From positions 1 through 32,858 of the forward strand of contig MGGH01000016.1 of NCBI GenBank assembly GCA_001792305.1: 32,858 nucleotides of DNA, in the 5' to 3' direction. Under the pieces are notes generated by a model. The model had not been told where the DNA came from. It saw nothing but the letters and a program-made list of their open reading frames with translations, and searched no databases. Source of the DNA: Candidatus Woesebacteria bacterium RIFCSPHIGHO2_01_FULL_39_23 (GTDB lineage: Bacteria > Patescibacteriota > Microgenomatia > UBA8517). This document shows, piece after piece, positions 8,038 to 30,247 of the stretch. The position numbers and the translations under genes were made by a program. Numbering within the stretch: position 1 is the stretch's first letter; each line of letters starts with the position of its first letter.

Positions 8038-9861
8038 ATGAAAAAAATATTTCTTGCACACCTTTTTTTATTATTTTTTATTGGCCTAAAATCAGTATTC
8101 GCTACAACTGATAATTTTAAAACGACTGCAAGTATATCGTATCTCGTCGAAGAAAACGAAGTTACAGTTGTAAATCACGAAATAACAATCGAAAATTTAA
8201 CAACAGAATACTACGCAGACAAATTTAGCTTAATTGTTAAAGGAACGAGTCCGCAAAACCCCAAGGCTTTTGAAAACGGCAAATCTTTAATTATACTTAC
8301 ACAAAAAGGGGAAGATTATTGGGTGCTTATCATAGAACTTGATAAGGTTGTAGGTATTGGAAAAAAAAGATCCTTTGAGATATTTTTTGAAACAGACGAT
8401 TTTGTAACTAAAACCGGTTCGGTTTGGGAAATATCAATTCCAAAAGAAGAGGCAAATAATGTTTACGATGTAACAAGCGTAACACTTTTAACCCCCTCTA
8501 TATTCGGCAGGCCAGCTTATATTTCACCAAAGCCGACTACTGAGCAACAAAGAGAAAATTTTTTTGCCTTTTTCTTTAAATCCCAAGATGTACCTTTAAA
8601 CGGAATAACAGCTGCTTTCGGCGATTTTCAAGTCTTTGATTTTGATTTATCTTATCATCTGGAGAATCCTCTAAACAAAGAGTCAAAATTGGATATTGCA
8701 ATACCTCCAGACACAGCTTTTCAAAAGGTAATTCTAAAATCAATCGATCCAAGACCAAAAAACATTTATCCTGACGAAGAAAATAACTGGTTGGCAACTT
8801 TTGTACTCGATCCTCGGGAGAAACTGGATATTAAAGTAGTTGGCGCTGTTGAAATTTACTCGTCAGCAGATTCAAGTTTTCCACTCCCTTCCAAAGAATA
8901 TTTAGAAGAGTCGTTGTTGGAAACAAATCTTTGGCAAGTAAATGACTCCAAAATTCAGGAGTTGGCGGGTAAACTTAAAACTCCAAAAGCTATTTATGAC
9001 TATGTTTCGTCTTTTTTAGTTTATGACTATTCAAAAGTTAGGCCAAATGTAGAAAGATTAGGTGCAGTTGCTGCGTTAGATAATCAACAAAAGGCAATAT
9101 GTACGGAGTTCACAGATCTTTTTATAGCGATCGCACGCGCAGCCGGAATCCCCGCAAGGGAAGTAAACGGATTTGCGTATTCAGAAAATCCTGTTATCCA
9201 ACCCCTTTCTTTGGTCGCTGACGTCTTGCATGCATGGCCTGAGTATTGGGACGAAGAATTAGGTTATTGGAAACCCGTTGATCCTACATGGGGTTCGACA
9301 ACAGGTGGTACTGATTATTTTAGTAAACTTGATCTCAGGCATTTTACTTTTGTAATGCACGGAAAAGATCCTCAAAAACCATATCCTCCAGGTTCTTATA
9401 AACTTGGCCCAAATCCTCAAAAGGATGTCTTTGTGACACTCGCAACTGAAGGGTTAACACATACCCAATCAGTTGATATCGTTCTTGAGCCAATTTCTAC
9501 AAGACCTTGGACCGACTCCAAAATAAAGATAAGTATAACAAACACAGGTAACACAGCTCTTTATAGCGAGAGGTTTCAAGTACTTTTTGACAAGACGACT
9601 GTTAATTTAAACATGATTAAATTTCTTGCCCCTTTTTCGACTTTTGAAAAAATAACAACCGTTCCATATAGCTTTTTGGGTAAAAGTACACCTCGTGTTA
9701 TTACAGTTATTCTAAAGGACCAAAATAAAAGCATAGAAACTTATAAAAACGAGGTTATAGTTTTTAGCCTTGCGTTAATTCTTTTTATAATAATTTTATT
9801 AATTTTTGTATTGTTTTTTTTCGTAAGAAAAACATATGGCAAGAAGAATTCACGAGATTGA
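8038..9861 (+). CDS. Membrane-anchored transglutaminase-like protein
   Basis: This 607-residue protein has a signal peptide or anchor at 1-22, a beta-rich extracellular region (about 25-300), a transglutaminase-like papain-fold domain, a further beta domain, and a C-terminal membrane segment at about 575-598 followed by a basic tail. The catalytic triad is visible as Cys355 (AICTEFTDLF), His398 (VLHAWPEYW) and Asp415 (KPVDPTWG). The active core should lie outside the cytoplasmic membrane. The family includes proteases and peptide N-glycanase-like enzymes as well as crosslinkers, so the reaction is open. It begins 13 bases after uvrA and its last 26 bases overlap uvrC, so it is part of the repair operon, though a repair role is not implied. 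Confidence 0.85.
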   Translation: MKKIFLAHLFLLFFIGLKSVFATTDNFKTTASISYLVEENEVTVVNHEITIENLTTEYYADKFSLIVKGTSPQNPKAFENGKSLIILTQKGEDYWVLIIELDKVVGIGKKRSFEIFFETDDFVTKTGSVWEISIPKEEANNVYDVTSVTLLTPSIFGRPAYISPKPTTEQQRENFFAFFFKSQDVPLNGITAAFGDFQVFDFDLSYHLENPLNKESKLDIAIPPDTAFQKVILKSIDPRPKNIYPDEENNWLATFVLDPREKLDIKVVGAVEIYSSADSSFPLPSKEYLEESLLETNLWQVNDSKIQELAGKLKTPKAIYDYVSSFLVYDYSKVRPNVERLGAVAALDNQQKAICTEFTDLFIAIARAAGIPAREVNGFAYSENPVIQPLSLVADVLHAWPEYWDEELGYWKPVDPTWGSTTGGTDYFSKLDLRHFTFVMHGKDPQKPYPPGSYKLGPNPQKDVFVTLATEGLTHTQSVDIVLEPISTRPWTDSKIKISITNTGNTALYSERFQVLFDKTTVNLNMIKFLAPFSTFEKITTVPYSFLGKSTPRVITVILKDQNKSIETYKNEVIVFSLALILFIIILLIFVLFFFVRKTYGKKNSRD

Positions 9862-13195: not shown

Positions 13196-13224
13196 TTGAC
13201 TTATTAACATATTATAGGTATAAT
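13196..13224 (+). promoter_or_regulatory. Near-consensus sigma70-type promoter of the glycan operon, leaderless
   Basis: TTGACT (13196-13201), a 17-base spacer and TATAAT (13219-13224) are followed by seven bases and the ATG at 13232. This is the best promoter in the window. Transcription should start at about 13231, so the first gene would be translated from a leaderless message. Confidence 0.75.
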
Positions 13225-13231: not shown

Positions 13232-14677
13232 ATGTCGCGATTTATTTTTATTGCGATTATTTTTTTGGCCTTGCTACTGCGGGCTATTAATCTTAATTAC
13301 AATAGTCCATTTAATGATGAGGCAATTTATGTAGTCGTGGGCACAGAAGGTCTTTTCAAAAAAGACTGGGAAAATCTGGATGCCGTAACTTGGATGGCCG
13401 GTAGTCCTTATACATATCCGGTAGTAACAGCAATTGCCTACAAGATTGGTGGACTTGAGTTCTCAAGATTTATAAACGTACTTTTTGGTATGGGTACAAT
13501 TTATTTGGCCGGTGAGACTGCGGCTCTATTTCAGAAGAAAAGGCAAAAACTTCCAACAGCCCTAGTTACAGTTGCCATAGTGGCTCTTTTACCCATTTCA
13601 TTTTATATCTCAAGGCTAGCAACTTACGATATACCCAGTTTTATGTTCATTTTTTTGGGTCTTTATTTTTTATTTCGGAACATGAAAGATAAAGAACCCA
13701 AAAATGAGCTTTATATGCTTTCAAGTGTTGCCTTTTTCATATCATTTTTATTCAAATATTTAGCAGTAATATATGTACTTTACGCGTGTTTAGTGTCCCT
13801 CCTCTATCTAAAAAAATTGAAGTTCAAGAATCTTTTTAAAAATGGCTGGTTTAGTTACTTTATTATTCCGATACTTTTAATGTTTGGTTTTTATACTGTT
13901 ACAAATTTAAGTAATCTTTATACCTATATTACCACCGAATCCACCTTAGAAATATTAGATATTCCAACAAAAATACAGATGTTCGTAAATGAATATTTGT
14001 TGATAGCACCTTTGGCGTTAATTTCGTTTTTATATTTAATATTTTCAAAAAAAGTAAAGACGGCTGTAAGTTTCATTATGGGTACGCTTTTTGTATTGGT
14101 TTTTCATTTTGTTTACCCGGGTGCACCTTCTTATGATAAACACATTTTCTTATCTGGAGTTTTTATGTCCATCCCAATAGGGATTGCTTTACCTTTAATT
14201 TACGAGAAAATAAATATAGGAAAAAGAGCGAAATCATTCTTAAGAGGCAATTTTATAGGCTTTTTATTATTTATGTTAATTTACCTTTTTTCGGTGATGC
14301 CTACAATAAATAATAAATGGTTAAACTTAGGTCAGTCATTAAATTTTCTTAACGGTAGAGTTAAAAAGGGAGATACAGTTTTAACTGAGTCAGGCGACGC
14401 ATTCGTTTTAGCATTATATGAAAAAATAAATCCTGTATATACCGTTACATTCGACTATATAAATTATTTGGAAAATGAAAAGAGTAATGAAGGTAGTAAT
14501 ATTTACACGCGGGCGGTAGAAGATGGTTATTTTAACTTTATAGAACTTGAAAATCAAAACATTCCCAAACTTGAAAGAAGCAAAGAACTAAATAGTTTAA
14601 TTTCAGAAATAATTGAAGAGAACTATCATGAAATTTATAACGAAAAAGGGGTCAAAATATATGAGAGGAGGTTTTAA
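13232..14677 (+). CDS. GT-C family membrane glycosyltransferase (ArnT/PMT-like, GT39/GT83 type)
   Basis: A 481-residue polytopic membrane protein with roughly ten hydrophobic segments and a soluble C-terminal tail of about 110 residues. The first extracellular loop has NSPFNDEAIYVV, with Asp29-Glu30 in the position of the acidic motif of GT-C enzymes such as ArnT and PMT. These use polyprenyl-phosphate sugars to glycosylate lipids, proteins or polymers on the outer side of the membrane. Family membership is fairly clear; donor and acceptor are not. It opens the glycan locus behind a near-consensus promoter and is followed after three bases by the deacetylase, whose SD lies inside this gene's end. 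A DPM1-like GT2 encoded at 18379 could supply the lipid-linked donor. Confidence 0.75.
   Translation: MSRFIFIAIIFLALLLRAINLNYNSPFNDEAIYVVVGTEGLFKKDWENLDAVTWMAGSPYTYPVVTAIAYKIGGLEFSRFINVLFGMGTIYLAGETAALFQKKRQKLPTALVTVAIVALLPISFYISRLATYDIPSFMFIFLGLYFLFRNMKDKEPKNELYMLSSVAFFISFLFKYLAVIYVLYACLVSLLYLKKLKFKNLFKNGWFSYFIIPILLMFGFYTVTNLSNLYTYITTESTLEILDIPTKIQMFVNEYLLIAPLALISFLYLIFSKKVKTAVSFIMGTLFVLVFHFVYPGAPSYDKHIFLSGVFMSIPIGIALPLIYEKINIGKRAKSFLRGNFIGFLLFMLIYLFSVMPTINNKWLNLGQSLNFLNGRVKKGDTVLTESGDAFVLALYEKINPVYTVTFDYINYLENEKSNEGSNIYTRAVEDGYFNFIELENQNIPKLERSKELNSLISEIIEENYHEIYNEKGVKIYERRF
14665..14671 (+). promoter_or_regulatory. Strong Shine-Dalgarno site for the anchored deacetylase
   Basis: GAGGAGG lies nine bases before the ATG at 14681, within the last codons of the preceding gene. 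It supports this start and shows that the organism also uses SD-led initiation, in contrast to its leaderless genes. Confidence 0.75.
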
Positions 14678-14680
14678 TCC

Positions 14681-15517
14681 ATGAAATTAAAATTAACTAT
14701 GTGGATGATTATACCAGCTATCTTGATATTTTTGATTACAAAATACATAACGTCATCCGAAGCAAATGAGGTAGAACCGCAGAATAATCTTCCAAAATTA
14801 AGCGATGCAACAATTCATAAAGATGAAATAGCCAAGGTAAAACTAGATTTAATTGATTCCTTTGAATGGGAAAAAAGAGGCATTGTAACTTTTTGGTTCG
14901 ACGATGCGTGGATGAGTCAATATACTAACGGTTTCCCCATACTTGAAAAGCATGGCTTTAAAGGCGCTCTAGCTGTCCCAACGGAGCTAATTAAATATGA
15001 AGGTTATATAAAATGGTGGCAAATAAAGAAGTTGCAGTTTAATGGCTGGGAAATCAACTCACATAGCGTAAGTCACGAATGTGACCAAGAAATAATGACG
15101 TACAAGAAACTTGAATTCGAGTTAAGATATTCTAAGATTGAAATAATGTCTCAAGGTCTTTTGGCTGATAACTATGTAGTACCCTGTGGGGTGGTTGATG
15201 ATAAATTAAATGAAATAGCAAAAACGTATTATAAGTCAATGAGAACCTCGGAACCTGGGCTAAATGATATTCCTTTAGAGGATCCCTATTTTATTAAAGC
15301 TGACACTATTATTAACACAACTAAAATTGAGGATATCAAAGGTCTTCTAAACGATGCAAAAGTAAATAGAAAGTGGGTTGTTTTGATGTTTCACCAGATA
15401 GACTATTCAAATGATATTTACGCAATTACTCCGGAGTTTCTTGATGAAATTACTAAGTTAGTCGAGGAATCAAAACTTCAAGTTGCGTTGCCGGAGCAGG
15501 TTTTGTCAATAAAATGA
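14681..15517 (+). CDS. Membrane-anchored polysaccharide deacetylase (NodB-like, CE4)
   Basis: CE4 enzymes remove N- or O-acetyl groups from sugar polymers using a metal held by Asp-His-His. The 278-residue protein has an N-terminal membrane anchor (about 7-23), a linker, and a NodB domain from about 66. Motif 1 is FWFDDAW (catalytic base and metal ligand, Asp74-Asp75), motif 2 is HSVSH (128-132), motif 3 corresponds to VPCGVVDD, and the late histidine is in LMFHQID. The catalytic domain therefore faces outside, as in PgaB or IcaB. A strong SD precedes the start, and the stop overlaps the GT2 synthase start as ATGA, implying translational coupling. No glycosidase domain is fused; a GH18-type gene lies two genes downstream. 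Confidence 0.85.
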   Translation: MKLKLTMWMIIPAILIFLITKYITSSEANEVEPQNNLPKLSDATIHKDEIAKVKLDLIDSFEWEKRGIVTFWFDDAWMSQYTNGFPILEKHGFKGALAVPTELIKYEGYIKWWQIKKLQFNGWEINSHSVSHECDQEIMTYKKLEFELRYSKIEIMSQGLLADNYVVPCGVVDDKLNEIAKTYYKSMRTSEPGLNDIPLEDPYFIKADTIINTTKIEDIKGLLNDAKVNRKWVVLMFHQIDYSNDIYAITPEFLDEITKLVEESKLQVALPEQVLSIK

Positions 15518-16617
15518 AACAAAATAATTCAAAAACGGCAATTATTATCCCAGCCTCAAATGAGGAGTTTGTTATTGAAAAAACTCTAAAAACCATATTG
15601 TCTTATATAAATAAACATGACGTTTACCTAGTCGATGATAATTCAAAGGATAAAACTTTTGAGCTGGCGCTAAAATTCCTTCCGTTAAATAACGTCTTGT
15701 CTTTGCGCAAAAACTCCGGCAAAGCAGGCGCATTAAACATCGGTATAAATAAATTTAAACTAACTGAAAAATACGAATACATAATGCCAATTGACGCAGA
15801 TGCCGTGCCCGCATCTCAATTTTTAGAAAATATCCTCGAATGCTTTATTTTAAATAAAAAAAGGAAATTAATAGCAGTTACGGGCAAGGTTATAGGAAAT
15901 AATTCATCTTGGATTACCGCATACAGGCTTTGGGAATATGAAATTTCGCAAAATATATATAAAAACTCACAAAATGCGACAAGCACAATTGCTGTTTGCC
16001 CAGGCTGCGCCACTGTTTATCGATCGAAGGTGTTTAAAAAGATACACTTTTCAAGGGATACTGTAACAGAAGACATGGATCTTACTTTTGAAATACACAG
16101 GAAAAAACTGGGGAAAATCGGGTATTGCTCGAAAGCTACAGTTAATACCCAAGATCCCGGAACTTTTCGAGACTTTGCTAAACAGGTAGAGAGATGGTAT
16201 AAGGGTTTCTGGCAATGTGTTATAAAACATAATGTTCCCTGGGGAGGACAGAAGTTTGACTTAGAAGTGGCACTACTCGCAACAGAGGGAATTTTTAATG
16301 GTTTTATAGTCTTAGCGCTTCTTCTTCTTTCTCCAGTCATAATAAGGTTTAGGTACGAGCTTATGATTTATCCTTTTATATTTGATTTCTGGTTATTTTT
16401 TTTACCATCGCTTCTTTACACAATACTAAAATACAAAGAATACAGAATGATGCTTTACATCCCTCAGTTTTATTTTATGAGACTTTTTACCGGATTAATT
16501 TTTATTAAGAGTTTTCTCAAGGTCTTATTCGGTCTTGCTCCCTCAGGAGAGTGGCAAAGGACTAGAAGATGGCAGATTTCAGAAAGGAAATTATGGCTCA
16601 GCCCATCCCTGGATTAA
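15514..16617 (+). CDS. Processive-type family 2 glycosyltransferase (PgaC/IcaA-, hyaluronan synthase-like)
   Basis: A 367-residue inner-membrane polysaccharide synthase candidate. The GT-A domain shows IIPASNEE (11-18), VDDNSKDKT (40-48), NSGKAGALNIG, IDADAVP with the metal-binding Asp94-Ala-Asp96, TEDMDLT (185-191) with the putative catalytic Asp, and QVERWYKGFWQ (224-234), the QxxRW signature of processive synthases of poly-GlcNAc, hyaluronan, chitin or cellulose. At least three C-terminal hydrophobic segments follow (about 253-350). It is shorter than PgaC (about 440) and lacks the N-terminal membrane helices. Coupling to the deacetylase by an ATGA overlap favours an N-acetylated polymer as product; the exact sugar is inference. 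Confidence 0.85.
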   Translation: MKQNNSKTAIIIPASNEEFVIEKTLKTILSYINKHDVYLVDDNSKDKTFELALKFLPLNNVLSLRKNSGKAGALNIGINKFKLTEKYEYIMPIDADAVPASQFLENILECFILNKKRKLIAVTGKVIGNNSSWITAYRLWEYEISQNIYKNSQNATSTIAVCPGCATVYRSKVFKKIHFSRDTVTEDMDLTFEIHRKKLGKIGYCSKATVNTQDPGTFRDFAKQVERWYKGFWQCVIKHNVPWGGQKFDLEVALLATEGIFNGFIVLALLLLSPVIIRFRYELMIYPFIFDFWLFFLPSLLYTILKYKEYRMMLYIPQFYFMRLFTGLIFIKSFLKVLFGLAPSGEWQRTRRWQISERKLWLSPSLD

Positions 16618-16715
16618 ATAATATTTCACTAGTTATTCACCTTTTGGTAATTGTTGTGGCAAAAACTTCAACTACAATAAAGAAGCTTCTTGGTAAATTT
16701 ATTAAAAGAAAGTGA
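16593..16715 (+). CDS. Unrecognised 40-residue single-span membrane peptide
   Basis: A short frame fills the gap between the synthase and the GH18-type gene. It begins at ATG 16593, behind AAAGGA (16583-16588), overlaps the last 25 bases of the synthase and ends with a TGA that overlaps the GTG start of the hydrolase (GTGA). The peptide has a polar start, one hydrophobic stretch (about 11-23, ISLVIHLLVIVVA) and a strongly basic tail with KKLLGKFIKRK. The two-sided overlap suggests that it is translated and couples the hydrolase to the operon. Its position is like that of PgaD/IcaD, small membrane partners of poly-GlcNAc synthases, but it is much shorter and I cannot show homology. It could also be a chance frame. 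Confidence 0.45.
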   Translation: MAQPIPGLNNISLVIHLLVIVVAKTSTTIKKLLGKFIKRK

Positions 16716-17761
16716 GAAAGTTTGTACTATTTTCGTTAATCTTTACAATATTTTTGGTGGTAATTTCTTATTTGAGTAATCTTTTTGGCTTTAAACAATT
16801 TATTTCTCCGGTGCCCGAATCTACTTACCTTATTATGGATATGCCACCTGAATTTGGTGCTTGGATTTCCTATTGGGGCGAGGATTTGGCTAACGAAAGC
16901 TTAGACAGAAACACTGTACTTAAAAGTGTTTCACCTGTCTGGTATAAGTTGGATGAATACTCAGATCTCGTCAAAAACGATCAAACCAAGGAGGAAGAAA
17001 TAAGACAGCATACCCAAGACAAAAAAATCTTGATTATTCCTTCGATCTCTAATGACTTGGACGGAACAAGGATATCTAAGCTTTTGGAAAGTAAAGATAA
17101 AATAACAAAGTTTATCCAAACGTTAGGAAAAATAACTGATACAGAAGTTTATGCAGGTGTTGATCTTGATCTCGAAACTATTGAAGAGAACCAAAAGGAC
17201 GCTTTTTCTTTATTTGTAGATCAGGTTGCAAAAGTCGTTCACCAAAAAAATAAAGCTCTCTCGGTCACTGTACACTCAAAAACAGGGAAAAACGACTGGG
17301 AAGGGTCGTTGGGTCAGGATTGGAAAAAACTCGCCGAAAGTGCTGATGAGATACGAATTATGGTTTATGATTATCATAATTCCGCGACTAGCCCAGGATC
17401 AATAACACCCAATAATTATCTTAAAGACGTGGTTGATTATGCCTTGGATCAGATTCCTTTAGAAAAAATTGTTATAGCTCTTCCTCTTTATGGGTATGAT
17501 TGGGGAGGGGAAGAAGTGGTATCGCTCATTTTTGAAGATATTGAATCTCTTGCAAATCAATTTTCTGCGGATATTAAATTAGAACCCAGAACACATTCAA
17601 AATATTTTAAATATGAGATAGATGGTGTAGACCATGAAGTCTGGTTCGAAGACAAAGAAACTCTTGAAAAGAAAATAAATATTGTCCGGTTAAAGGGCAT
17701 AAATAAATTTTATTTTTGGAAGCTCGGCGGCGAAGACAGAAGGGTTTGGGAAATTAATTAA
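16712..17761 (+). CDS. Membrane-anchored GH18-type glycoside hydrolase
   Basis: GH18 enzymes cleave beta-1,4-linked N-acetylglucosamine chains by substrate-assisted catalysis. The 349-residue protein has a membrane anchor at 4-24 and a TIM-barrel domain. The active-site motif is YAGVDLDLE (147-155), a DxDxE with Glu155 as predicted acid. Barrel strands IRIMVYDYHN, KIVIALPLYGYDW and FYFWKLGGED follow the order seen in YaaH/SleL-like and chitinase-like members. The GTG start is chosen because the anchor begins directly after it and because it overlaps the preceding stop as GTGA. Together with the deacetylase and synthase upstream, it may trim the polymer as the PgaB glycosidase domain does; action on peptidoglycan is the alternative. 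Confidence 0.82.
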   Translation: MRKFVLFSLIFTIFLVVISYLSNLFGFKQFISPVPESTYLIMDMPPEFGAWISYWGEDLANESLDRNTVLKSVSPVWYKLDEYSDLVKNDQTKEEEIRQHTQDKKILIIPSISNDLDGTRISKLLESKDKITKFIQTLGKITDTEVYAGVDLDLETIEENQKDAFSLFVDQVAKVVHQKNKALSVTVHSKTGKNDWEGSLGQDWKKLAESADEIRIMVYDYHNSATSPGSITPNNYLKDVVDYALDQIPLEKIVIALPLYGYDWGGEEVVSLIFEDIESLANQFSADIKLEPRTHSKYFKYEIDGVDHEVWFEDKETLEKKINIVRLKGINKFYFWKLGGEDRRVWEIN

Positions 17762-17914: not shown

Positions 17915-18382
17915 ATGGGTTTTCGAGATCTTAAAACATCTATAAACCGGCCCAATCTCGCGGGTATATCAAAAACGATAGTTATACTCTTTGTTATTTT
18001 AGTAGGTGCACTTCTATCAATTAAAGCAACAAAAGAGATCCTTATACCTAATTTAAAAAGACAACGTGAACCGCTTACGGAGCTATATTTTTCTAATCAT
18101 TTAAACATACCGAAGCAAATCGAGAAAGGAAAACCTTACTCTTTTGAATTCACAACACGGAATCTTGAGTATAAAGATACAAATTATGTTTATGAGATTT
18201 TAGTTTCTGAAAACGAAGGTATGAGCCTGATTGAGAAAGGAGAATTTATCTTGACTCACGGTGAGACAAAATCGGTTCCTGAAGAGTTTTTAATTCCAGA
18301 ATCCTTTGGGAGAGCAAAAATTACAGTCAGTTTGGTTAATAAAGATCAGGAAATTAGCTTTTGGATTGAGGAGGACATATGA
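17915..18382 (+). CDS. Single-span membrane protein, DUF1616-like extracellular domain
   Basis: A 155-residue protein with a basic N-terminus, one membrane segment (about 20-37) and a small beta-rich outer domain. The stretch LTELYFSNHLNIPKQIEKGKP, followed by FEFTTRNLEYKDTNYVYEILV, is like the C-terminal part of DUF1616 proteins, which are found in archaea and some bacteria beside glycosylation genes. This is recognised by pattern only. There is no catalytic motif. Its stop overlaps the following DPM1-like GT2 (ATGA), so it may be a membrane partner or accessory of that enzyme. Confidence 0.55.
   Translation: MGFRDLKTSINRPNLAGISKTIVILFVILVGALLSIKATKEILIPNLKRQREPLTELYFSNHLNIPKQIEKGKPYSFEFTTRNLEYKDTNYVYEILVSENEGMSLIEKGEFILTHGETKSVPEEFLIPESFGRAKITVSLVNKDQEISFWIEEDI
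18368..18374 (+). promoter_or_regulatory. Shine-Dalgarno site for the DPM1-like GT2
   Basis: GAGGAGG ends four bases before the ATG at 18379, within the end of the preceding gene. The spacing is short, but the match is strong and fixes the start. Confidence 0.65.
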
Positions 18383-19107
18383 AAAAGATATCAATTTTAA
18401 TTCCCTGTCTTAATGAAGAGAAAGGAATTGGTAAGGTAATAGATGGCATTCCAAGAGATTTACTCTTCACTTTGGGTTATCAAACTGAAGTTATAGTAAT
18501 TGATAATAATTCAACTGATGGAACAGTAGAAGTAGCTCTCCAGAGAAATGTACGGATTGTTAGTGAAAAAAATCCCGGGAAAGGAAATGCTATAAAGGCC
18601 GGATTTGAGGCGCTGGACATAGACACAAATTATGTTGTGGTGTTGGATGGGGATAACACATATAAATCAAAAGAGATTTTGCGGATGATCGAGCCTTTAG
18701 TTAGTGATTTTTGCGACGTTGTAGTTGGTTCCAGACTGGGTGGTAAAGTGCTAAAGAATTCGCTGAAATTTGCAAACAGATGTGCAAATTGGGGTTACAC
18801 CTTTTTGGTGAGGCATTTTTATCAAGCCAATATTACCGATGTTTTAAGTGGCTATTTTGCATTTAAGCGTGAAGTGGCAGATAAATTAAAGCTTTACCTT
18901 CAGTCTGACGGATTCACAGTTGAAATGGAAATGATAACAAAGATTGTCAAGATCGGTTATGAAGTTTATTCAGTACCTATTACATATGACGAAAGAGAAG
19001 GCGAAACGAAGATTAAATTGTTTAAGGATGGAATACAGATACTTGCCATGTTTTTTAAAAATTTGTTTTGGTTTCCCAACGAAAGGAAGTCCGAAGTATT
19101 TAAATGA
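18379..19107 (+). CDS. Family 2 glycosyltransferase, dolichol/polyprenyl-phosphate mannose synthase (DPM1)-like
   Basis: A soluble 242-residue GT-A enzyme of DPM1 size. It shows ILIPCLNEEKGIGKVI (6-21), VIDNNSTDGT (40-49), KNPGKGNAIKAGF, VLDGDNTY with Asp90/Asp92 as metal ligands, VVGSRLGG and TDVLSGYFAFKREV. Enzymes of this type transfer a sugar from UDP- or GDP-sugar to polyprenyl phosphate on the inner face of the membrane. Such a product could feed the GT-C enzyme encoded at 13232 or the large membrane protein at 23103. The start is fixed by GAGGAGG and an ATGA overlap. The stop overlaps the following GT4 gene in the same way. Confidence 0.85.
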   Translation: MKKISILIPCLNEEKGIGKVIDGIPRDLLFTLGYQTEVIVIDNNSTDGTVEVALQRNVRIVSEKNPGKGNAIKAGFEALDIDTNYVVVLDGDNTYKSKEILRMIEPLVSDFCDVVVGSRLGGKVLKNSLKFANRCANWGYTFLVRHFYQANITDVLSGYFAFKREVADKLKLYLQSDGFTVEMEMITKIVKIGYEVYSVPITYDEREGETKIKLFKDGIQILAMFFKNLFWFPNERKSEVFK

Positions 19108-20213
19108 ATGTAGTTATCTTAGTCAGTTATACGTATCCTTTTATCGGAAGTGGATTGGGTCAGGTAGCATTAATGCAAGCAGAAGGCTTGACAAAACTGG
19201 GACACCAAGTCGTTCTTGTCAGTAGCAACATACCGGCTACTTGGAAAAGGTTCAAAAGAAACAGGGTTTTACATTTGAAGCAAAACTGCCTGAATTTCAT
19301 GGATAAATTCAGTATTCCAGTACCTTTCTTTTTCTTGAGCCGCGAGGTCATATCTCATATTGAAAACGCAGATGTCGTCCACAGTCACGACATGCTTTAT
19401 CCTCATTCAATGCTGGCTGCTTTGGTTGCAAAAAGATTTGCTAAACCTTTTGTCCTGACTCAGCATGCTGGTTTTATTTCCTATCCAAATCGATTGACTA
19501 ACCTTCTCCAGTTGTTGACTAATAAAACCATGGGAAAGCTAGTTTTAAAGCTTAGCGATCAAATAATAGTAGTAAACGAAGATGTGAAAAATTGGTTAGG
19601 GAAAGACGGGACAAGTGCGGTGACACTTATGAATGGTGTAAATACTTCCCTTTTTCACCCAGTTACCCAAAAAACAAAAATGGAAATACGAAAGAAATAT
19701 GGCTTTCCGCTTAACAAAAAAATAGTCCTTTATGTGGGTAGGTTAGTAAAAAAGAAGGGTTTTCAAAGACTTTTTGAAGTAAAGAGCAGCGATTACTTGA
19801 TAATTATTGTTGGCTTGGGCGAAGTGCCCGAGTACATGACTAATGAGAAAGACAAAGTTTTGTTCTTAGGGGCAATTTCTCAAAAGAAACTAAGCGAAAT
19901 ATACCAAGCTAGTGATGTTTTCGTTTTGCCGTCAGACTGCGAGGGATTTCCGCTGTCTATACAGGAAGCGATGGCTTCTGGTTTACCGATTATAACAAGT
20001 AAGCATCCAGGGTTTGATAAATACTTAGATAGGCACTTCGTGAAATTTATTTCGCCCACCAGTATAGAAACTAAAAGAGCAATTGTTGAAATATTTAAAA
20101 ATAAGAAATTAAGAGATACTATGGTGCATTACTCACTAAAAACAACTATCGCAAAAGCAAGTTGGGAGAACAACGTACAAGAACTTTTAAAGATTTATCA
20201 AAAAGTAATTTAA
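19104..20213 (+). CDS. Family 4 glycosyltransferase (first of four)
   Basis: A 369-residue GT-B enzyme. The N-terminal domain starts VVILVSYTYPFIGSGLGQVALMQ with the glycine-rich acceptor loop. The C-terminal donor domain has VGRLVKKKGFQ (211-221), the basic site for the nucleotide-sugar phosphate, and the EX7E motif as Glu280 and Glu288 in CEGFPLSIQEAMASGLP. It would add one sugar from a nucleotide donor to a lipid-linked chain in the cytoplasm; the sugar cannot be told from sequence. ATGA overlap with the DPM1-like gene and TAATG overlap with the following deacetylase show tight coupling. Confidence 0.85.
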   Translation: MNVVILVSYTYPFIGSGLGQVALMQAEGLTKLGHQVVLVSSNIPATWKRFKRNRVLHLKQNCLNFMDKFSIPVPFFFLSREVISHIENADVVHSHDMLYPHSMLAALVAKRFAKPFVLTQHAGFISYPNRLTNLLQLLTNKTMGKLVLKLSDQIIVVNEDVKNWLGKDGTSAVTLMNGVNTSLFHPVTQKTKMEIRKKYGFPLNKKIVLYVGRLVKKKGFQRLFEVKSSDYLIIIVGLGEVPEYMTNEKDKVLFLGAISQKKLSEIYQASDVFVLPSDCEGFPLSIQEAMASGLPIITSKHPGFDKYLDRHFVKFISPTSIETKRAIVEIFKNKKLRDTMVHYSLKTTIAKASWENNVQELLKIYQKVI

Positions 20214-20917
20214 TGAAAAAAATTGTTGTAACTACAAGCTGGGATGACGGACACATTCTAGATCTTAAACTAGCTAGGTTACTTAAAAAATATTCCATTA
20301 AAGGTACGTTTTATATTCCACCTAGAAACAGAGAGTTTACCCAAAGTGATCTGTTAACCGATAGACAGATAACTAAACTAGGTAAAGATTTTGAAATAGG
20401 AGGACACACACTGACTCATCCTGTATTAACAAAAATTAGTCTGCTCGAAGCAGAAAAAGAAATTGTTGAAGGCAAACGATATCTTGAAAAACTCACAGGG
20501 CAAAAACTAATAAGTTTTAGTTATCCGCGTGGCAAGCATAATTTAGACATCCAAAATTTAGTAAAGAAAAGCGGCTTTTTGTATGCACGCACAGTTGAAA
20601 GATACAAGTTTACTATGCCGAAAAACTTTTATGAAAGTCCTACGAGTTTACATGCTTTCAGGCAGTATCAAGACGTTTTTAAAATTGCTAGGTTTTCCTG
20701 CTTAAATCCAATATCGTTTTTAGAAAATATGAATTGGGAAAATTTAGCTAAAAGGATATTTGACAGTCTTAAAGAGGGAAGTGTTTACCATTTCTGGGGA
20801 CACTCTTGGATTATAGACAGAAAGAAAGAGTGGGGAAAACTTGAAAACGTGCTTGAGTACATCAGCAACAGGCCAAATGTTTTATATGTCGAGAATAGAG
20901 ATTTAGCATATGAATAA
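20213..20917 (+). CDS. Cytoplasmic NodB-like polysaccharide deacetylase (first of two paralogues)
   Basis: A 234-residue CE4-type enzyme with no signal peptide or membrane segment. Motif 1 is TSWDDGHILD (Asp11-Asp12), motif 2 is HTLTH (65-69), motif 3 is SYPRGKHN and the late histidine is in HFWGHSW. The ATG at 20213 is preferred over an upstream in-frame ATG at 20162, because the paralogue starts at the same point and it gives a TAATG overlap with the GT4 stop. Lack of a signal suggests it acts inside the cell on a lipid-linked or nucleotide-linked intermediate, as NodB does. The sister gene on the minus strand at 27648-28370 shares roughly half of its residues by eye. Confidence 0.85.
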   Translation: MKKIVVTTSWDDGHILDLKLARLLKKYSIKGTFYIPPRNREFTQSDLLTDRQITKLGKDFEIGGHTLTHPVLTKISLLEAEKEIVEGKRYLEKLTGQKLISFSYPRGKHNLDIQNLVKKSGFLYARTVERYKFTMPKNFYESPTSLHAFRQYQDVFKIARFSCLNPISFLENMNWENLAKRIFDSLKEGSVYHFWGHSWIIDRKKEWGKLENVLEYISNRPNVLYVENRDLAYE

Positions 20918-22022
20918 AATTTTAGTTGTTACTTCTTATTTTTATCCAGATGTCAGCGGAGTAGGTAAACACATGTATAATTTGTGCAAGTGTCTTGTAT
21001 CTGACTATCATTTTAAAGTAGTTATAATTTCATCCGGAAAAAAATATCAGGAAGAGGAAATCTCGGGAATAAAAGTTTACAGGCTTCCTTTTTGGTTTAA
21101 GTTATCAAATACCCCTATTAACCCCCTTTGGTATTTCCACATAAAAAAGATAATTGCAAGAGAAAAGCCGGACCTTATAAACAGTCGTGCACCTGTCCCG
21201 TTTATGCCAGATTTGGGAGCCCTGGCTGCCGGTAAAATACCGTTCGTATTGGGCTACCATTTCCCCTCCATGATTAAAGGTAAGATACTTCCTGACATAT
21301 TAATTAAAATTTATGAGTCGCTTTTTTTAAGATTCATGCTAAACAAAGCTAAAGTCATTATATGTTCTTCAGAATTTATAGGGAAAAGTTTTCTAAAAAA
21401 CTACTCGCATAAGATAGTAACTATTACCCAAGGGATAGACACAAGACTATTTATACCTAAGGAAACAAATGTCCGAAATGAAATCATTTTTGTAGGAAAT
21501 TTCTATGTCGAATACAAAGGGCTCTTTTACCTGCTTCAAGCTTTAAGGTTTGTAAAAGACCATATAAAAGAGATAAAGCTAAAAATAGTCGGAGAAGGGA
21601 ATTACAAATATTACCATAGCTTGTGTAAGAAGATAGGCATAAACCGGTTTGTTGAGTTTAAAGGAAGACTTTTCGGTAAAAATTTAGTTGGCGAATATCA
21701 AACTTCTAACTTGTTGGTTTTACCTTCAATTTCCGACAATTTTCCGAGTGTTTGTTTGGAAGCTATGGCTTGTAAGATACCTGTGATAGGAACTGCTGTT
21801 GGTGCGGTGAAAGATATAATCGATGACGGCAAGAGTGGTATATTGGTTCCGCCCAGAGATGAAAAGGCTTTGGCAAATGCGATAATAAGGATTCTCAGGG
21901 ATAAAAAGTTGGCAGATAGTCTAGCCCAGAAAGGGTATCGAAAGATACAAGATAATTTTAACTGGGACGATCGAGCCAGAATGACAAAGGAAGTATTTGA
22001 TAAGGTCATACGTTTACAATGA
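20910..22022 (+). CDS. Family 4 glycosyltransferase (second of four)
   Basis: A 370-residue GT-B enzyme. The N-terminus is ILVVTSYFYPDVSGVGKHMYNL; the donor domain has FVGNFYVEYKGLFYLLQAL, VGEGNYKYY and SDNFPSVCLEAMACKIPVIG. In the EX7E motif the first acidic residue is Asp276 rather than Glu, with Glu284 kept. The C-terminus ends with the typical FNWDDRARMTKEVF helix. It overlaps the deacetylase by eight bases and the next GT4 by four. Donor and acceptor are not predictable. Confidence 0.85.
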   Translation: MNKILVVTSYFYPDVSGVGKHMYNLCKCLVSDYHFKVVIISSGKKYQEEEISGIKVYRLPFWFKLSNTPINPLWYFHIKKIIAREKPDLINSRAPVPFMPDLGALAAGKIPFVLGYHFPSMIKGKILPDILIKIYESLFLRFMLNKAKVIICSSEFIGKSFLKNYSHKIVTITQGIDTRLFIPKETNVRNEIIFVGNFYVEYKGLFYLLQALRFVKDHIKEIKLKIVGEGNYKYYHSLCKKIGINRFVEFKGRLFGKNLVGEYQTSNLLVLPSISDNFPSVCLEAMACKIPVIGTAVGAVKDIIDDGKSGILVPPRDEKALANAIIRILRDKKLADSLAQKGYRKIQDNFNWDDRARMTKEVFDKVIRLQ

Positions 22023-23116
22023 AAATAATTCAAGTTACGCCAGGTTATCCGCCCAGTATCGGTGGGGTCCAAAATGTTGCCAAAGAGATTTCCGTCGGTT
22101 TGGCAAATATGGGTCATGAAGTTACCGTCTTCACTTGTACAAACGGTATCAAAGATATTAAGAGACAAACAGAAAAGAATTTGACAGTTTACTACCTTAA
22201 AGATTTTGTATTTGCACATACACCTGTCGTTCCGATGCTTTTTTTTAGACTATTGTTGATTCCCACAGATTCAATAATGCATGTACATATTTCCAAAGCT
22301 TTTATTCCAGAGATAGTTTATTTGATTTCGAAAATAAGAAAAATTCCGTATGTAGCCCATTTTCATTTGGATGTAGAACCGTCGGGTAGGTTAGGGTTTC
22401 TTCTGCCGATTTATAAAATGATCTTTTTAAGACGTGTTTTGAAAAATGCAAATAAAGTGGTAGTTTTGTCAACTCGGTATAAAGATCTAATGAAGAATAA
22501 ATATGGTTTGACAAAGCGGATTTTAGTGATACCCAACGGTGTAGGGGAAGAGTTTTTTTTAGCGAAGAGGAAGACCGCTGTTCGTGACGATTTTAATTTA
22601 CTTTTTGTTGGAAGAGTTTCTATTCAAAAAAATGTTGCTTGTTTGGTTGAAGCAGTTTCTTTGGTTAAAAACAAGACAACCCTGAATATAGTTGGTGAAG
22701 GCGAGCTTTTACTTCAAATAGAAAAAATGATCACTAAAAGGAGACTTATTAATGTGATATTACACGGGGGTAAAACTGGCAAGGAGCTTATTGATTTTTA
22801 CCGTAAAGCCGATATTTTTTTATTAGCCTCAAAACAGGAAGGATTACCCCTTGTCCTTTTAGAAGCCATGGCGGCCAGTGTACCAGTAATTGCATCGGAC
22901 GTTATTGGTAATCATGAATTTATCGAAGACGCCGGCTTATTAGTAGATCCGCCAACCCCAAAAAATTTTGCTTTTATGATTGATAAATTAATCGAAGACC
23001 GAAAATTGGCAGAGAGATTATCCCGCCGTGGCCGCAAAAAAGCTCAAGCATACAGATGGGTAAAAATAGTCAAAAAGTTCGAAGAATTGTATGAAGGGTT
23101 ATATGAAAATAACTAA
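22019..23116 (+). CDS. Family 4 glycosyltransferase (third of four)
   Basis: A 365-residue GT-B enzyme. It begins IIQVTPGYPPSIGGVQNVAKEI, with the glycine-rich loop of GT4 acceptor domains. The donor half shows FVGRVSIQKNVACLVEA, VGEGELLLQ and KQEGLPLVLLEAMAASVPVIASD with both glutamates of EX7E. The tail AYRWVKIVKKFEELYE is typical of the family. The start overlaps the preceding stop as ATGA. Its 3' end overlaps the following membrane-protein gene by 14 bases. Confidence 0.86.
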   Translation: MKIIQVTPGYPPSIGGVQNVAKEISVGLANMGHEVTVFTCTNGIKDIKRQTEKNLTVYYLKDFVFAHTPVVPMLFFRLLLIPTDSIMHVHISKAFIPEIVYLISKIRKIPYVAHFHLDVEPSGRLGFLLPIYKMIFLRRVLKNANKVVVLSTRYKDLMKNKYGLTKRILVIPNGVGEEFFLAKRKTAVRDDFNLLFVGRVSIQKNVACLVEAVSLVKNKTTLNIVGEGELLLQIEKMITKRRLINVILHGGKTGKELIDFYRKADIFLLASKQEGLPLVLLEAMAASVPVIASDVIGNHEFIEDAGLLVDPPTPKNFAFMIDKLIEDRKLAERLSRRGRKKAQAYRWVKIVKKFEELYEGLYENN

Positions 23117-25373
23117 AAATAGAATATTTTTTGGGGTTCTACTAATGCTTCAGGTTTTAAACTTGCTGGTTTCTTTGGACATAAATTATTTTTTTATTCG
23201 ACCCATATTTGGTATGGCCTTTCTTGCTTTTGTTCCAGGCGTGCTATTAATGTTGGCATTAAAAATAAAGAAAAAAATATTTTGGGAAGCAATTGTGTAT
23301 GTGGTAGGTTTAAGTGTTACTTTTTTGATGTTTGCGGGCTTGATAACAAATTGGGTACTGACCAATTGGAAAATAAGTGAACCACTTTCAACTTCTCATT
23401 TAATAGTTGTCTTTAACTTTTTTATAATAATCCTTCTAATTTTAGCAATGGCAAGAAACAAAAGAATCGTCTGGACAATAAAATTGCCTAAACTTAAATT
23501 TATAGACTGGTTATCGTTATCTATCCCTTCAATCTTTCCGGTTCTTGCCATTTTTGGAGCAGTAACTTTAAACAACGACAATTTCAACCCATATACAACT
23601 ACTATGCTAGGATCGATCGCATTATGGGTCGTAATGGTTGCTATATTCGGTAAAAAATTAGATCGGAATATTTATCCAGCATCTTTATTTTTTATATCTC
23701 TAGCACTCCTTTTCATGACCTCTTTACGGGGATGGTATACAACTGGACACGATAACCAGCTTGAGTATTTCGTATTTCAATTAACCAAGTCTGATTACAC
23801 TTGGGACATTTCCGAGTACCGCGATCCGTATAATGCCAGCCTAAGCATCACAATCTTGCCTACCGTATTTTATTCGCTATTGGGAATAAACGACGTGTAT
23901 ATCTACAAGACGATATTCCAAATAATCTTTTCTTTAATCGGAGTAAGTTTATTTTTGTTTTTTGAGAGATATACTTCCAGGTTTGTTGCTTTACTCTCGG
24001 TATTTAGCTTTATTTCATTTCCAACTTTTATAAACGACATGCCAATGTTGAATAGGCAAGAAATTGCAATGTTTTTTTTCTCATTAGTCCTTCTTGAACT
24101 TTTTGCTAAAACTCCCAGGTCGAAAGTAAATAGAATACTTTTTTTAATTTTTGGCTTCAGTATGGTGGTATCTCATTACTCTACAACTTATATAGCAATT
24201 GCTCTATTTGTTTTCGTTTATGTAGCCATTCATGTTCTCAAGAAAAATCCTTTAGGAATTATGAAGAAGTTGAAAATTAGACCGACTAAATCACGGCTAA
24301 GTCTAGGTATGATTCTACTCCTTTTTGCCCTTACTCTTCTATGGAACGTCCAGTTGACAAATACAACTACAGGTTTAACCAGAGTAATTACTGAGACATA
24401 CAAAAACCTTGGAAAAACTTTTAGCCAAGATCTCAAATCAGGTGGAGTCCTTTACAGCTTGTTTAGCTGGCAAAGTCTTGATAAAGAAGAACTTTTGAAA
24501 GATTATGTCAAGACAGGTATCGACGAGGCTAGACTACGGACCAGTAGAGACCGACTATATGATGAAGCAATTTATTCTGAATATGCAATAAATCTAGTTG
24601 ATGATCACAGAAGCCCACCGAGAAATATTGGTCAGTGGCTTATAAATTACCAAATAGACCCTTTTGGAGTGAATTTTTATTTGAGACAAGTAATTGCGAA
24701 GATAATTCAGGTGTTTATGATTATTGGACTTATAGTTATTCTGCTTCGAAAGAGTAAATTTGTCAAAAATCTAGACTTTGAATACTTGGTATTAGTTTTC
24801 GCAAGTTTTGTTACTCTTGCAATTTTTATTGTTTTGCCAGTTCTTTCAATAGAATATGGAACCCAACGCCTTTTCCAGCAGACTCTTATGATTTCTTCAT
24901 TGCCTATGGTAATAGGTTTTTTTGCGTTTTTGGGCAGTCGTATTTCGGTGGCAGTTCTAGTTACCATATTTTTGTCTCTTTCGGGTTTCATACCTTATAT
25001 TACTGGTTTTTATTATCCACAGCTGCATTTGGAAAACGACGGTGTTTATTATGACTCCTATTTACTACATAAGTCAGAGGCAGAATCTATGAAATGGCTG
25101 AGTGAAAATTATAGTACCCTGTATGATATTTACTCCACTTCATCATCTCACTCTAAACTAAAATCCTTGACAGGATTGTTTTCTTACAAAAATGTGCTTC
25201 CGGGAGTTTTGACTAAAGAGGCATACGTGTACCTAGATTACACGAATGTAGACAAACAAGAAGATATAGTAAGCCATAAAGGAGATCTTTTTATCTACAA
25301 ATACCCAATCAAATTCTTGGATCAAAATAAAGATCTTATATATTCAAACGCAGAGACAATAATTTATAAATGA
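23103..25373 (+). CDS. Large polytopic membrane protein, DUF2206-like
   Basis: About 756 residues with some 13-15 hydrophobic segments and a soluble C-terminal end. The signature region is GHDNQLEYFVFQ followed by YNASLSITILPTVFYSLLGI and a conserved LNRQEIAMFFFSLVLLELF. This fits DUF2206, a membrane family of archaea and bacteria that I associate with glycan loci. A GT-C type fold with an acidic residue in the first large loop is possible, which would make it a glycosyltransferase or polymerase, but this is inference. ATG 23103 is preferred over ATG 23091 because AAGGG lies just before it; both are in frame. The stop overlaps the next GT4 (ATGA). Confidence 0.65.
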   Translation: MKITKNRIFFGVLLMLQVLNLLVSLDINYFFIRPIFGMAFLAFVPGVLLMLALKIKKKIFWEAIVYVVGLSVTFLMFAGLITNWVLTNWKISEPLSTSHLIVVFNFFIIILLILAMARNKRIVWTIKLPKLKFIDWLSLSIPSIFPVLAIFGAVTLNNDNFNPYTTTMLGSIALWVVMVAIFGKKLDRNIYPASLFFISLALLFMTSLRGWYTTGHDNQLEYFVFQLTKSDYTWDISEYRDPYNASLSITILPTVFYSLLGINDVYIYKTIFQIIFSLIGVSLFLFFERYTSRFVALLSVFSFISFPTFINDMPMLNRQEIAMFFFSLVLLELFAKTPRSKVNRILFLIFGFSMVVSHYSTTYIAIALFVFVYVAIHVLKKNPLGIMKKLKIRPTKSRLSLGMILLLFALTLLWNVQLTNTTTGLTRVITETYKNLGKTFSQDLKSGGVLYSLFSWQSLDKEELLKDYVKTGIDEARLRTSRDRLYDEAIYSEYAINLVDDHRSPPRNIGQWLINYQIDPFGVNFYLRQVIAKIIQVFMIIGLIVILLRKSKFVKNLDFEYLVLVFASFVTLAIFIVLPVLSIEYGTQRLFQQTLMISSLPMVIGFFAFLGSRISVAVLVTIFLSLSGFIPYITGFYYPQLHLENDGVYYDSYLLHKSEAESMKWLSENYSTLYDIYSTSSSHSKLKSLTGLFSYKNVLPGVLTKEAYVYLDYTNVDKQEDIVSHKGDLFIYKYPIKFLDQNKDLIYSNAETIIYK

Positions 25374-26446
25374 AAAAACTAAGGTTGGGATTACTGGTTT
25401 TGTCAAACAGTTGGGGAGGCGCCGAAGAATCTATTTACAATATGGCAAAAAATATTGACAAGAAGGAGTTTGCAGTAAGTCTTTTGGTGAACGAATTCCT
25501 TTGCGATAGATACAAAGATATCAGGAGTGTAAGTGTTGTAAATCTCGGCCGGCTTGAATCAAACAAAAAGATTCAGAAAGTTTATACTTTAATAAAAATT
25601 CGATCCAGATTATTTGAGTCTGTCAAAAAATACCGCATAGAAATTATTCACGCCCGACTTGAAAACTCATTAATACTACTTGGAACAATGCTTAATAAAC
25701 CCTCTGTCCCTCTGGTTTTTACCCTTTGCGGAGATGAAACAAAAATTTATCATAATCCCAAAACCTTGGAACAAAAATTGATTCGGATGTTTTTAAATAG
25801 GATGCTTAAGGATAATGATGTGACAGTTACTTCGGTCTCAAATTGGCTGGTAAAGGATTTTGATAAAGAAAATAAAACTAAAATAAAAGTTATTTCAAAC
25901 GGTGTAGACATTAATAAATTTCGTCCACTGAAGCTAAGAAGATTTAATAAATCGATACTATTTGTAGGCAGATATGTCGAAGGCAAAGGCATAGAAGATT
26001 TATTGAAAGTGGCAAGACAACTCAAAAACTATAAATTTATATTTGCAGGAAAAGGGCCTTTGGTTAGCTTATTAAAGTTAGAAAACACAAAGGATATAGG
26101 TTTCCAAAGAAGAGAAAGTCTTATTAAGCTTTATTCGCAAGTTACTCTTTGCACTTTTCCATCATATTCAGAGGGTATGCCCATGGTAGGTTTGGAGGCT
26201 ATGGCTTGCGGCACACCAGTGGTCGCGTCGTATGTCGGGTTTGGCGAATACATAGATAATAGAGTTGATGGACTGATTATAGAACCCGGGAATATTATTC
26301 AGCTTAAACGTGCAATTCTTAAGCTTATGGAAAATTCCAACTTACGTAAACGTTTGGGGAAAAACGCTAGAAAAAAGGCACTAAAATATGATATAAAAAG
26401 GGTCGTTCTTAAATATCAAGATTTGTACCGTGAAGTAGCCAAATAG
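25370..26446 (+). CDS. Family 4 glycosyltransferase (fourth of four)
   Basis: A 358-residue GT-B enzyme starting LGLLVLSNSWGGAEESIYNMAKNI. The donor domain shows FVGRYVEGKGIEDLLKVA, FAGKGPLVSLL and YSEGMPMVGLEAMACGTPVVASY with the EX7E glutamates. It is coupled to the DUF2206-like gene by ATGA and is the last gene of the plus-strand run. Its final 31 bases overlap the 3' end of the minus-strand flippase gene, so the two transcripts collide with no terminator between them. Confidence 0.86.
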   Translation: MKKLRLGLLVLSNSWGGAEESIYNMAKNIDKKEFAVSLLVNEFLCDRYKDIRSVSVVNLGRLESNKKIQKVYTLIKIRSRLFESVKKYRIEIIHARLENSLILLGTMLNKPSVPLVFTLCGDETKIYHNPKTLEQKLIRMFLNRMLKDNDVTVTSVSNWLVKDFDKENKTKIKVISNGVDINKFRPLKLRRFNKSILFVGRYVEGKGIEDLLKVARQLKNYKFIFAGKGPLVSLLKLENTKDIGFQRRESLIKLYSQVTLCTFPSYSEGMPMVGLEAMACGTPVVASYVGFGEYIDNRVDGLIIEPGNIIQLKRAILKLMENSNLRKRLGKNARKKALKYDIKRVVLKYQDLYREVAK

Positions 26447-27651: not shown

Positions 27652-28370
27652 TTTAAACACTCTAGGGTCTCGCCATTAGTTAAGTATTTAACTCCCGTTC
27701 TGTTGGCGACATAAGCCAAAACTTCCTCCAGCTTCCCCCACCAGTTATTTTGTTCAATTTGCCATGAGTGTCCCCAGAAGTGCCAAATACCGCCATCTTT
27801 TTGTACAACATCGAATGTTTTGCATGAGACCTTAACCCAGTCTCGGTAAAAAGAAAAGGGGATAAATTTGGGATTATTGGCTAAAGCCAAAGCAAGACTA
27901 TAACCAATACTTCTATTAACTGAATGATTTGTAGTTCCCATTTCGAAAAAATCAGAGGGAGGTCTGGTTCTAAACGTTTTGATTGTCCGTGCTCCCAAAT
28001 AGCCCGCCCGCTTTGTTAATTTTTTAATTTCTTCGTTGTACAAACCTTTTGGATAACAAAACATTGGCACTTTTTTTCCCAGTAAATTTTCTAAATACTC
28101 TTTAGATTCTCTTATTTCTCTAGCAGCTTCCTTCAAACTTATTTTTGTTAAGTCGGGATGTGTAATTGTATGAGCGCCTATTTCAAAATCATTATTTAAT
28201 TTTATTGTCTGTTTACTTGTGAGAATGTCCTTTTTCAACCATTGTCTACCATTGGGGGATACATATAGAGTCGCTGGAATTTGGTACCTTCTAAGTAGAT
28301 CTGCAAGTTTAATGTCTAGTATGTGGCCGTCATCCCAGCTTGTGGTAACAATTTTATAATTATAATTCAC
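27648..28370 (-). CDS. Cytoplasmic NodB-like polysaccharide deacetylase (second paralogue)
   Basis: A 240-residue CE4-type enzyme with no signal peptide. Motif 1 is TSWDDGHILD (Asp13-Asp14), motif 2 is HTITH (67-71), motif 3 is CYPKGLYN and the late histidine lies in HFWGHSW. It is a clear paralogue of the plus-strand gene at 20213-20917. Here it sits between a nucleotide-sugar dehydrogenase-like gene and a flippase, coupled by ATGA overlaps on both sides. This placement suggests it deacetylates a lipid-linked intermediate before the chain is flipped; direct substrate evidence is lacking. Confidence 0.85.
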   Translation of the reverse strand: MNYNYKIVTTSWDDGHILDIKLADLLRRYQIPATLYVSPNGRQWLKKDILTSKQTIKLNNDFEIGAHTITHPDLTKISLKEAAREIRESKEYLENLLGKKVPMFCYPKGLYNEEIKKLTKRAGYLGARTIKTFRTRPPSDFFEMGTTNHSVNRSIGYSLALALANNPKFIPFSFYRDWVKVSCKTFDVVQKDGGIWHFWGHSWQIEQNNWWGKLEEVLAYVANRTGVKYLTNGETLECLK

Positions 28371-29158: not shown

Positions 29159-29176
29159 TTAACAGATTAGATCGAC

Positions 29177-29204
29177 ATTATACACATTATAGGAACGAAA
29201 TCAA
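29177..29204 (-). promoter_or_regulatory. Promoter of the dehydrogenase-deacetylase-flippase operon
   Basis: On the minus strand TTGATT (29204-29199), a 16-base spacer and TATAAT (29182-29177) precede the ATG at 29158 by 18 bases. A second TATAAT lies just upstream (29191-29186) without a well-placed -35. The predicted leader is about 12 bases and has no Shine-Dalgarno site. Confidence 0.5.
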
Positions 29205-30246: not shown

Positions 30247-30247
30247 A

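Follow-up and report, generated by a model that had tools for sequence, protein, structure and literature searches.

In a 32,858-nucleotide stretch of DNA from Candidatus Woesebacteria bacterium RIFCSPHIGHO2_01_FULL_39_23 (the whole stretch analysed, hereafter the window), we describe a cassette of five genes encoding a GT-C glycosyltransferase, a NodB-type deacetylase, a GT2 synthase, a tiny membrane peptide and a GH18 hydrolase. The cassette is a real conserved unit of Patescibacteria, and its five genes most probably serve to make, trim and in part deacetylate a surface sugar polymer resembling chitin. We favour, with a probability of roughly 0.55, a synthase-dependent exopolysaccharide system in which the GT2 and the peptide would polymerise and export an amino-sugar chain, the NodB protein would deacetylate it and the GH18 enzyme would cut it. 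By their sequences, the peptides form a coherent family and are the most novel part of the cassette. We give even odds to the idea that, in Patescibacteria, these one-helix peptides of about 26 to 74 amino acids (aa) are a separately encoded transmembrane (TM) helix subunit of GT2 polysaccharide synthases, completing a split membrane channel and encoded next door to most of the synthases that lack a helix of their own, on either side of the GT2 gene or fused to the start of the gene that follows. The source genome is of Woesebacteria type (Microgenomates, Patescibacteria), measures 850 kb and is 92% complete. The features of the cassette are as follows.

13196-13224, forward strand: sigma70-type promoter for the cassette, TTGACT-N17-TATAAT, 11/12 match.
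13232-14677, forward strand: GT-C membrane glycosyltransferase (PMT_2/ArnT-like), 481 aa, about 9 TM segments; Pfam PMT_2 and PMT above cut-off.
14681-15517, forward strand: NodB/CE4 polysaccharide deacetylase, membrane-anchored, 278 aa, D-D / HSxxH / H intact; Pfam and aligned residues.
15514-16617, forward strand: GT2 synthase, 367 aa, with DD, DxD, TED and QxxRW, three C-terminal TM helices and the N-terminal TM helix absent; Pfam, motifs and a clade of 10 orthologs.
16593-16715, forward strand: 40-aa one-TM peptide, MAQPIPGLNNISLVIHLLVIVVAKTSTTIKKLLGKFIKRK, probably N-out/C-in, overlapping the end of GT2 and the start of GH18; ortholog in 10/10 class-A loci (defined below), leave-one-out hidden Markov model (HMM) and frame conservation.
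16712-17761, forward strand: GH18 glycoside hydrolase, membrane-anchored, of chitinase/YaaH/YdhD type, 349 aa, GTG start, DxDxE intact; Pfam and PDB profile matches.

These five open reading frames (ORFs) lie on one strand at the positions given by the original prediction, which had described a coupled gene set behind one promoter with the GT-C gene in front. This description holds, as the ORFs, overlaps and promoter were all found: the GT-C and NodB genes are 3 nucleotides (nt) apart, and the NodB/GT2 and peptide/GH18 pairs each overlap by 4 nt. The promoter upstream of GT-C is the top promoter-like match within 5 kb and is kept in the closest relative, G001 (TTGACA...TATAGT). Because the gap between the end of the -10 box and the GT-C start codon (ATG 13232) is only 7 nt in the window and 6 nt in G001, the first gene of the cassette probably has a leaderless mRNA. 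The peptide probably starts at ATG 16593 and not at the upstream ATG 16569, since G001 has two in-frame stops just before the equivalent ATG.

Orthologous loci were gathered by profile searches over 56, 374 and 380 genomes, followed by reading of their surroundings. Ten cassette loci were obtained (class A: G000, G001, G013, G156, G185, G301, G334, G364, G552 and G640), drawn from several families and at least two classes of Patescibacteria. The GT2, the peptide and the GH18 enzyme are present in all ten, the NodB protein in nine and the GT-C protein in eight. The locus of G001, whose GT2 is 71% identical to that of the window, has the identical order of GT-C, NodB, GT2, peptide and GH18. The complete set runs in one direction in G000, G001, G334 and G185, while in G013, G552 and G640 it is complete with the GH18 gene inverted, still adjacent; G364 shares this GH18 arrangement, with its GT-C and GH18 frames broken. 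Losses are seen in G301, which has no GT-C match and a NodB protein whose metal ligands are gone, and in G156, which is reduced to GT2, peptide and GH18. These three genes are therefore the invariant core. Moreover, since the flanking genes differ among G001, G013, G334 and G185, the cassette is a unit and not leftover synteny. The neighbourhood comparison across Patescibacteria, foreseen beforehand, thus found the gene order to be conserved across families.

The 40-aa peptide has no match in the libraries searched. The original prediction had listed it as a tiny membrane peptide and assigned it no role; it proved to be real, conserved and the most informative part of the cassette. In all class-A loci, the GT2 is directly followed by a peptide that measures 32-74 aa and carries one clear TM segment and a basic tail; a histidine stands at a fixed position in 9/10 of these peptides. 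Past the overlap with the GT2 gene, the peptide frame scores 79 (BLOSUM62) between the window and G001, compared with 30 and 9 for the other frames. In leave-one-out HMM comparisons, 10/10 peptides beat all 117 control N-terminal TM segments, as well as 100 zone-preserving shuffles each. When the HMM was run over 7018 ORFs from 55 loci, its next-best ORFs outside the training set immediately followed helix-less GT2s, namely those of G197 and G065 (E 2.6e-6 each), G421 (0.005) and G060 (0.05), and a match before the GT2 was found in G403 (E 0.014). By position and motif alone, a peptide also precedes the GT2 in G639 and G600, is fused to the beginning of the gene that follows in G383, and corresponds to the first, peptide-like helix of a three-TM protein in the group of G022, G366, G361 and G101. 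As a separate observation, several of the GT2-linked membrane peptides at L117-L119, L056 and L144 start with LPxTG (MNTGLPGTGIGG.., LPTTG, LPSTG) before the TM helix and basic tail; these starts resemble a bare sortase signal, possibly by coincidence.

The distribution of the peptides is complementary to that of a helix within the synthase. The N-terminal TM helix is absent in the class-A GT2s and present in PgaC, IcaA, a Mesorhizobium GT2, the GT2s of a second group of Microgenomates loci (class B) and the fused GH18-CE4-GT2 proteins, both discussed below. Among helix-less GT2s with readable flanks, about 22/28 have a peptide neighbour (16 of these with some HMM support), and such a neighbour is missing from all 18 Patescibacteria GT2s whose N-terminal helix is built in. 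From this pattern we infer that the peptide stands in for the missing N-terminal TM helix of the synthase.

Its partner is a GT2 of the processive type, carrying DxD, ED, QxxRW and C-terminal TM helices. It matches Pfam Glycos_transf_2 (76.4 bits) and Glyco_trans_2_3 (57.8 bits), has three hydrophobic segments at its C-terminus and zero at its N-terminus, and its motifs VDD...DAD...TEDMD...QVERW are conserved among orthologs, with K for R in the QxxRW of G001. Its best named family is PgaC/IcaA (NCBIfam TIGR03937, 99.6 bits) and not a single-sugar transferase, which supports the processive type named in the original prediction; the next-best NCBIfam models are XrtG-type and CelA, and 8/8 tested orthologs match the PgaC/IcaA, XrtG-type, NodC and CelA models. 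By profile, chondroitin, cellulose, hyaluronan and heparosan synthases are among its nearest solved structures. In the tree, the 10 cassette GT2s form their own clade (support 100/98) near the class-B GT2s and a Mesorhizobium GT2, apart from the fused proteins and from PgaC and IcaA, which group separately (100/100); no grouping of cassette GT2s with PgaC/IcaA was found in it. Since MurA-like and GlmU-uridyltransferase-like genes are present in the genome, a supply of UDP-N-acetylglucosamine (UDP-GlcNAc) is plausible.

The hydrolase of the cassette is, by its sequence, a canonical GH18. It scores 86.4 bits against Pfam Glyco_hydro_18 (cut-off 29.6), has one N-terminal hydrophobic segment and carries the motifs DLDLE...YDYH (MVYDYH), conserved among orthologs and including the catalytic Glu of DxDxE; these catalytic residues are intact in 9/9 complete copies, the frame being broken in G364. 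It is the sole match in its genome at E<=0.001. Its closest solved structures are 5jh8 (the best, annotated as a chitinase and presumably from Chromobacterium), 3cz8 and 4s3k, which include YdhD and YaaH. No match to the cassette hydrolase was obtained with a GH153-type model in the Pfam scan. Because it has the GH18 DxDxE, and the PgaB hydrolase, on which GH153 was founded, does not show the GH18 consensus (PMC5933820), the two are different enzymes.

The NodB protein scores 36.2 bits against Pfam Polysacc_deac_1 (cut-off 23.1) and has one N-terminal hydrophobic segment. Its motifs FDD...HSVSH...FHQ contain the D-H-H metal triad and catalytic Asp of CE4 enzymes. It adjoins the GT2 in 9/10 cassettes, and its catalytic residues, aligned in nine loci, are intact in 8/9. 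Its best matches are weak (HfsH, BpsB/PgaB, IcaB and PdaA), with PdaA/PdaB among some profile matches. The window protein is not listed among the matches of the PgaB deacetylase model TIGR03938, which 3/7 orthologs match weakly (best E 7.6e-5). The NodB protein of G301 (L087:2657-3505) has FDS, replacements of H128 and H132 that remove HxxxH, and FNQ; it is an apparent pseudoenzyme retained in the operon. The GT-C protein scores 32.7 bits against PMT_2 (cut-off 26.1), PMT likewise being above cut-off, and a homolog occupies the same place in 8/10 cassettes; it is probably an enzyme with a lipid-linked sugar donor that would decorate the polymer or a lipid.

How could these proteins act together? 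In synthase-dependent systems, the membrane GT2 is accompanied by a hydrolase or lyase acting externally, such as PgaB, PelA, BcsZ or AlgL (PMC9384988, PMC5933820), and the cassette combines a synthase, an adjacent external hydrolase and a modifying enzyme in a linkage conserved in 10 loci. We could envisage that an amino-sugar chain is polymerised by the GT2 at the inner face of the membrane, presumably from UDP-GlcNAc or a related UDP-HexNAc. The chain would exit through the C-terminal helices of the GT2, completed by the 40-aa peptide, which would sit N-out/C-in in place of the N-terminal TM helix of PgaC, IcaA and class-B GT2s. Outside the cell, the anchored NodB protein would strip some N-acetyl groups and the anchored GH18 enzyme would cut the chain for length control or clearance, like PgaB, PelA, BcsZ and AlgL, while side sugars may be attached by the GT-C protein, which would draw on a polyprenyl-phosphate donor. 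In GH18 catalysis, an N-acetyl group of the substrate itself, adjacent to the cleavage site, normally takes part. For this reason our best guess is a chitin/chitosan-like, partly deacetylated polymer, which would be likelier than poly-β-1,6-N-acetylglucosamine (PNAG). Any use of the polymer in attachment would be a further conjecture.

Several observations weigh against this account. The GT2 lies far under the TIGR03937 equivalog threshold (cut-off 422.3), and AlphaFold2 models of the GT2 and NodB proteins, built from two-sequence alignments, reached a pLDDT of 45 and were left out of fold searches. Deacetylation is not always included, NodB being absent in G156 and stripped of its metal ligands in G301. 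As for the peptide, five helix-less GT2s have no clear peptide (G002, G375, G478, G540 and G671), and the tree needs only 2 changes between built-in and free helix, so that there were not many independent events. HMM comparisons in both directions and hhalign gave no significant homology between the peptides and the built-in N-terminal helices, no better than for control TM segments. Their sole link is a motif chosen after seeing both sets, G-h-[ST]-x3-[HNW], which is found in 11/17 peptides, 9/17 built-in helices and 0/117 controls.

Other explanations for the cassette have to be considered. One is a set of genes modifying peptidoglycan, in which a PgdA/PdaA-like deacetylase and a YaaH/YdhD-like lytic enzyme would act beside a GT2 making a wall-linked glycan. 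The spore cortex-lytic YaaH and YdhD are indeed among the nearest solved GH18s, some NodB profile matches are PdaA/PdaB and the genome has a MurA-like gene, but the top GH18 match is annotated as a chitinase, a Pfam scan of the window GH18 saw no LysM or SH3, and peptidoglycan maturation does not need the invariant partners, a processive-type GT2 and a peptide. We therefore consider this explanation unlikely. Slightly less probable is a non-processive GT2 that transfers a single sugar onto a lipid or glycoprotein glycan and belongs with the large glycosylation cluster downstream (17915-32437). A GT-C enzyme heads the cassette, and the window holds a flippase and many GT4/GT2 genes, as would be expected; QxxRW and synthase-like C-terminal TM helices speak against it, as does the GH18 partner in every ortholog, which fits a polymer, and the neighbours in G001 and G013 never match that cluster, the flanks in G334 and G185 differing again. 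A genuine PNAG system, that is, a monoderm-type ica/pga operon with PgaB split over two genes, as the original prediction proposed, seems to us improbable to a similar or marginally greater degree. PgaC/IcaA is the best named family of the GT2, and the NodB profile matches BpsB/PgaB and IcaB-type chains; against this, the GT2 misses the equivalog cut-off by far and falls outside the PgaC/IcaA clade, the hydrolase is GH18 and not GH153 (PMC5933820), and the peptide has one TM helix compared with two in PgaD and IcaD. Of the predicted poly-GlcNAc-like operon, the processive-type GT2, secreted deacetylase and secreted hydrolase in a conserved operon stand; the split PgaB is not supported, as the hydrolase is of another family, the deacetylase is only weakly HfsH/PgaB/IcaB-like and the GT2 is outside the PgaC/IcaA clade.

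For the peptide itself, it could be argued that it is a leader coupling GH18 translation, or a regulator, and not a subunit of the GT2. Its ORF overlaps both genes, and junction ORFs can serve in coupling. We find this doubtful, since the TM sequence is conserved, including the histidine, and the peptide is kept despite an inverted GH18 gene (G013, G364, G552 and G640) and even without a following GH18 gene (G065 and G197), while it precedes the GT2 in G403, G600 and G639.

Like E. coli pgaABCD, the cassette has a PgaC-type GT2, deacetylase and hydrolase activities and a small membrane partner of the synthase. Unlike it, the cassette has GH18 for GH153, a GT2 without N-terminal helices and its deacetylase and hydrolase in separate genes, so that the CE4-GH153 fusion of PgaB is missing; PgaD and IcaD have two TM segments each, whereas the cassette peptide has one in 40 aa. 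There is no PgaA-like outer-membrane porin among the cassette genes, to which this search was confined. Staphylococcus icaADBC likewise joins a synthase, a small membrane protein and an anchored deacetylase in one operon, and, of the reference deacetylases compared with the NodB profile, IcaB comes closest (31 bits). It differs in that IcaD has 108 aa and two TM helices, IcaA has its own N-terminal helix and ica lacks a hydrolase, while the cassette lacks IcaC. An operon survey found the hydrolase domain restricted to Gram-negative PgaB and missing from IcaB (PMC7112194).

A closer precedent than PgaB is provided by fused GH18-CE4-GT2 proteins (Prevotella nigrescens WP_004367853.1, Sphingobium BDX60028.1), which we take to be the CDD entries GH18_trifunctional / CE4_GT2-like and which contain the same three enzyme types. 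We read WP_004367853.1 as TM, GH18, CE4, TM and GT2, and the cassette GH18 and GT2 profiles both match it. These are single chains of about 1100 aa, in contrast to the three separate ORFs of the cassette, which adds GT-C and the peptide. The idea that the cassette is simply such a protein split into parts was dropped, because the fused GT2 belongs to another clade and the cassette NodB profile finds no match in the fused CE4. The Patescibacteria genome G668 encodes a protein of 1103 aa (L157:6142-9453) whose GT2 is preceded by TM segments at 21 and 713 and groups in the tree with the Prevotella fused GT2. Within the Microgenomates, the class-B loci have a related GT2 beside GH18, with GT-C too in L106 and L107; among L106, L107 and their relatives L102-L115, GH18 adjoins the GT2 in at least 8 of 14. 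Unlike in the cassette, the N-terminal TM helix is part of these GT2s and a free peptide is missing, and a PIG-L deacetylase, WbqC, a UDP-sugar dehydrogenase and an epimerase are found in place of NodB. The class-B loci look like another polymer system, one that employs a deacetylase of a different type.

Surface-polymer building in the ultra-small, host-dependent Patescibacteria is barely known. In the papers searched, we came across neither a description of the cassette nor any poly-aminosugar synthase system reported for Patescibacteria, and nothing on Woesebacteria polysaccharides, GH18 trifunctional proteins or the topology of IcaD and PgaD; in a study of activated sludge, PgaC was assigned to Chitinophagales and other bacteria and not reported in Patescibacteria (PMC9530719). 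Through the conserved cassette, a chitin/chitosan-like surface polymer gains concrete candidate genes, which are named and can be expressed. If our proposal is true, the micropeptide, a kind of small ORF easily overlooked in annotation, would be a natural split of the synthase membrane channel, making it directly testable which helix polymer translocation requires.

Two other regions of the window deserve mention. A large, separate glycan cluster follows the cassette at 17915-32437, with an AglJ-like GT2, several GT4s, DUF2206, a flippase and a UDP-sugar dehydrogenase, and it holds two further NodB proteins (20162-20917 and 27648-28370). It does not adjoin the cassette in G001, and we dropped the idea that the cassette is part of it because relatives carry the cassette without that cluster. 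Finally, a membrane-anchored transglutaminase-core protein is encoded at 8038-9861, between uvrA and uvrC, and the same is seen in G001.

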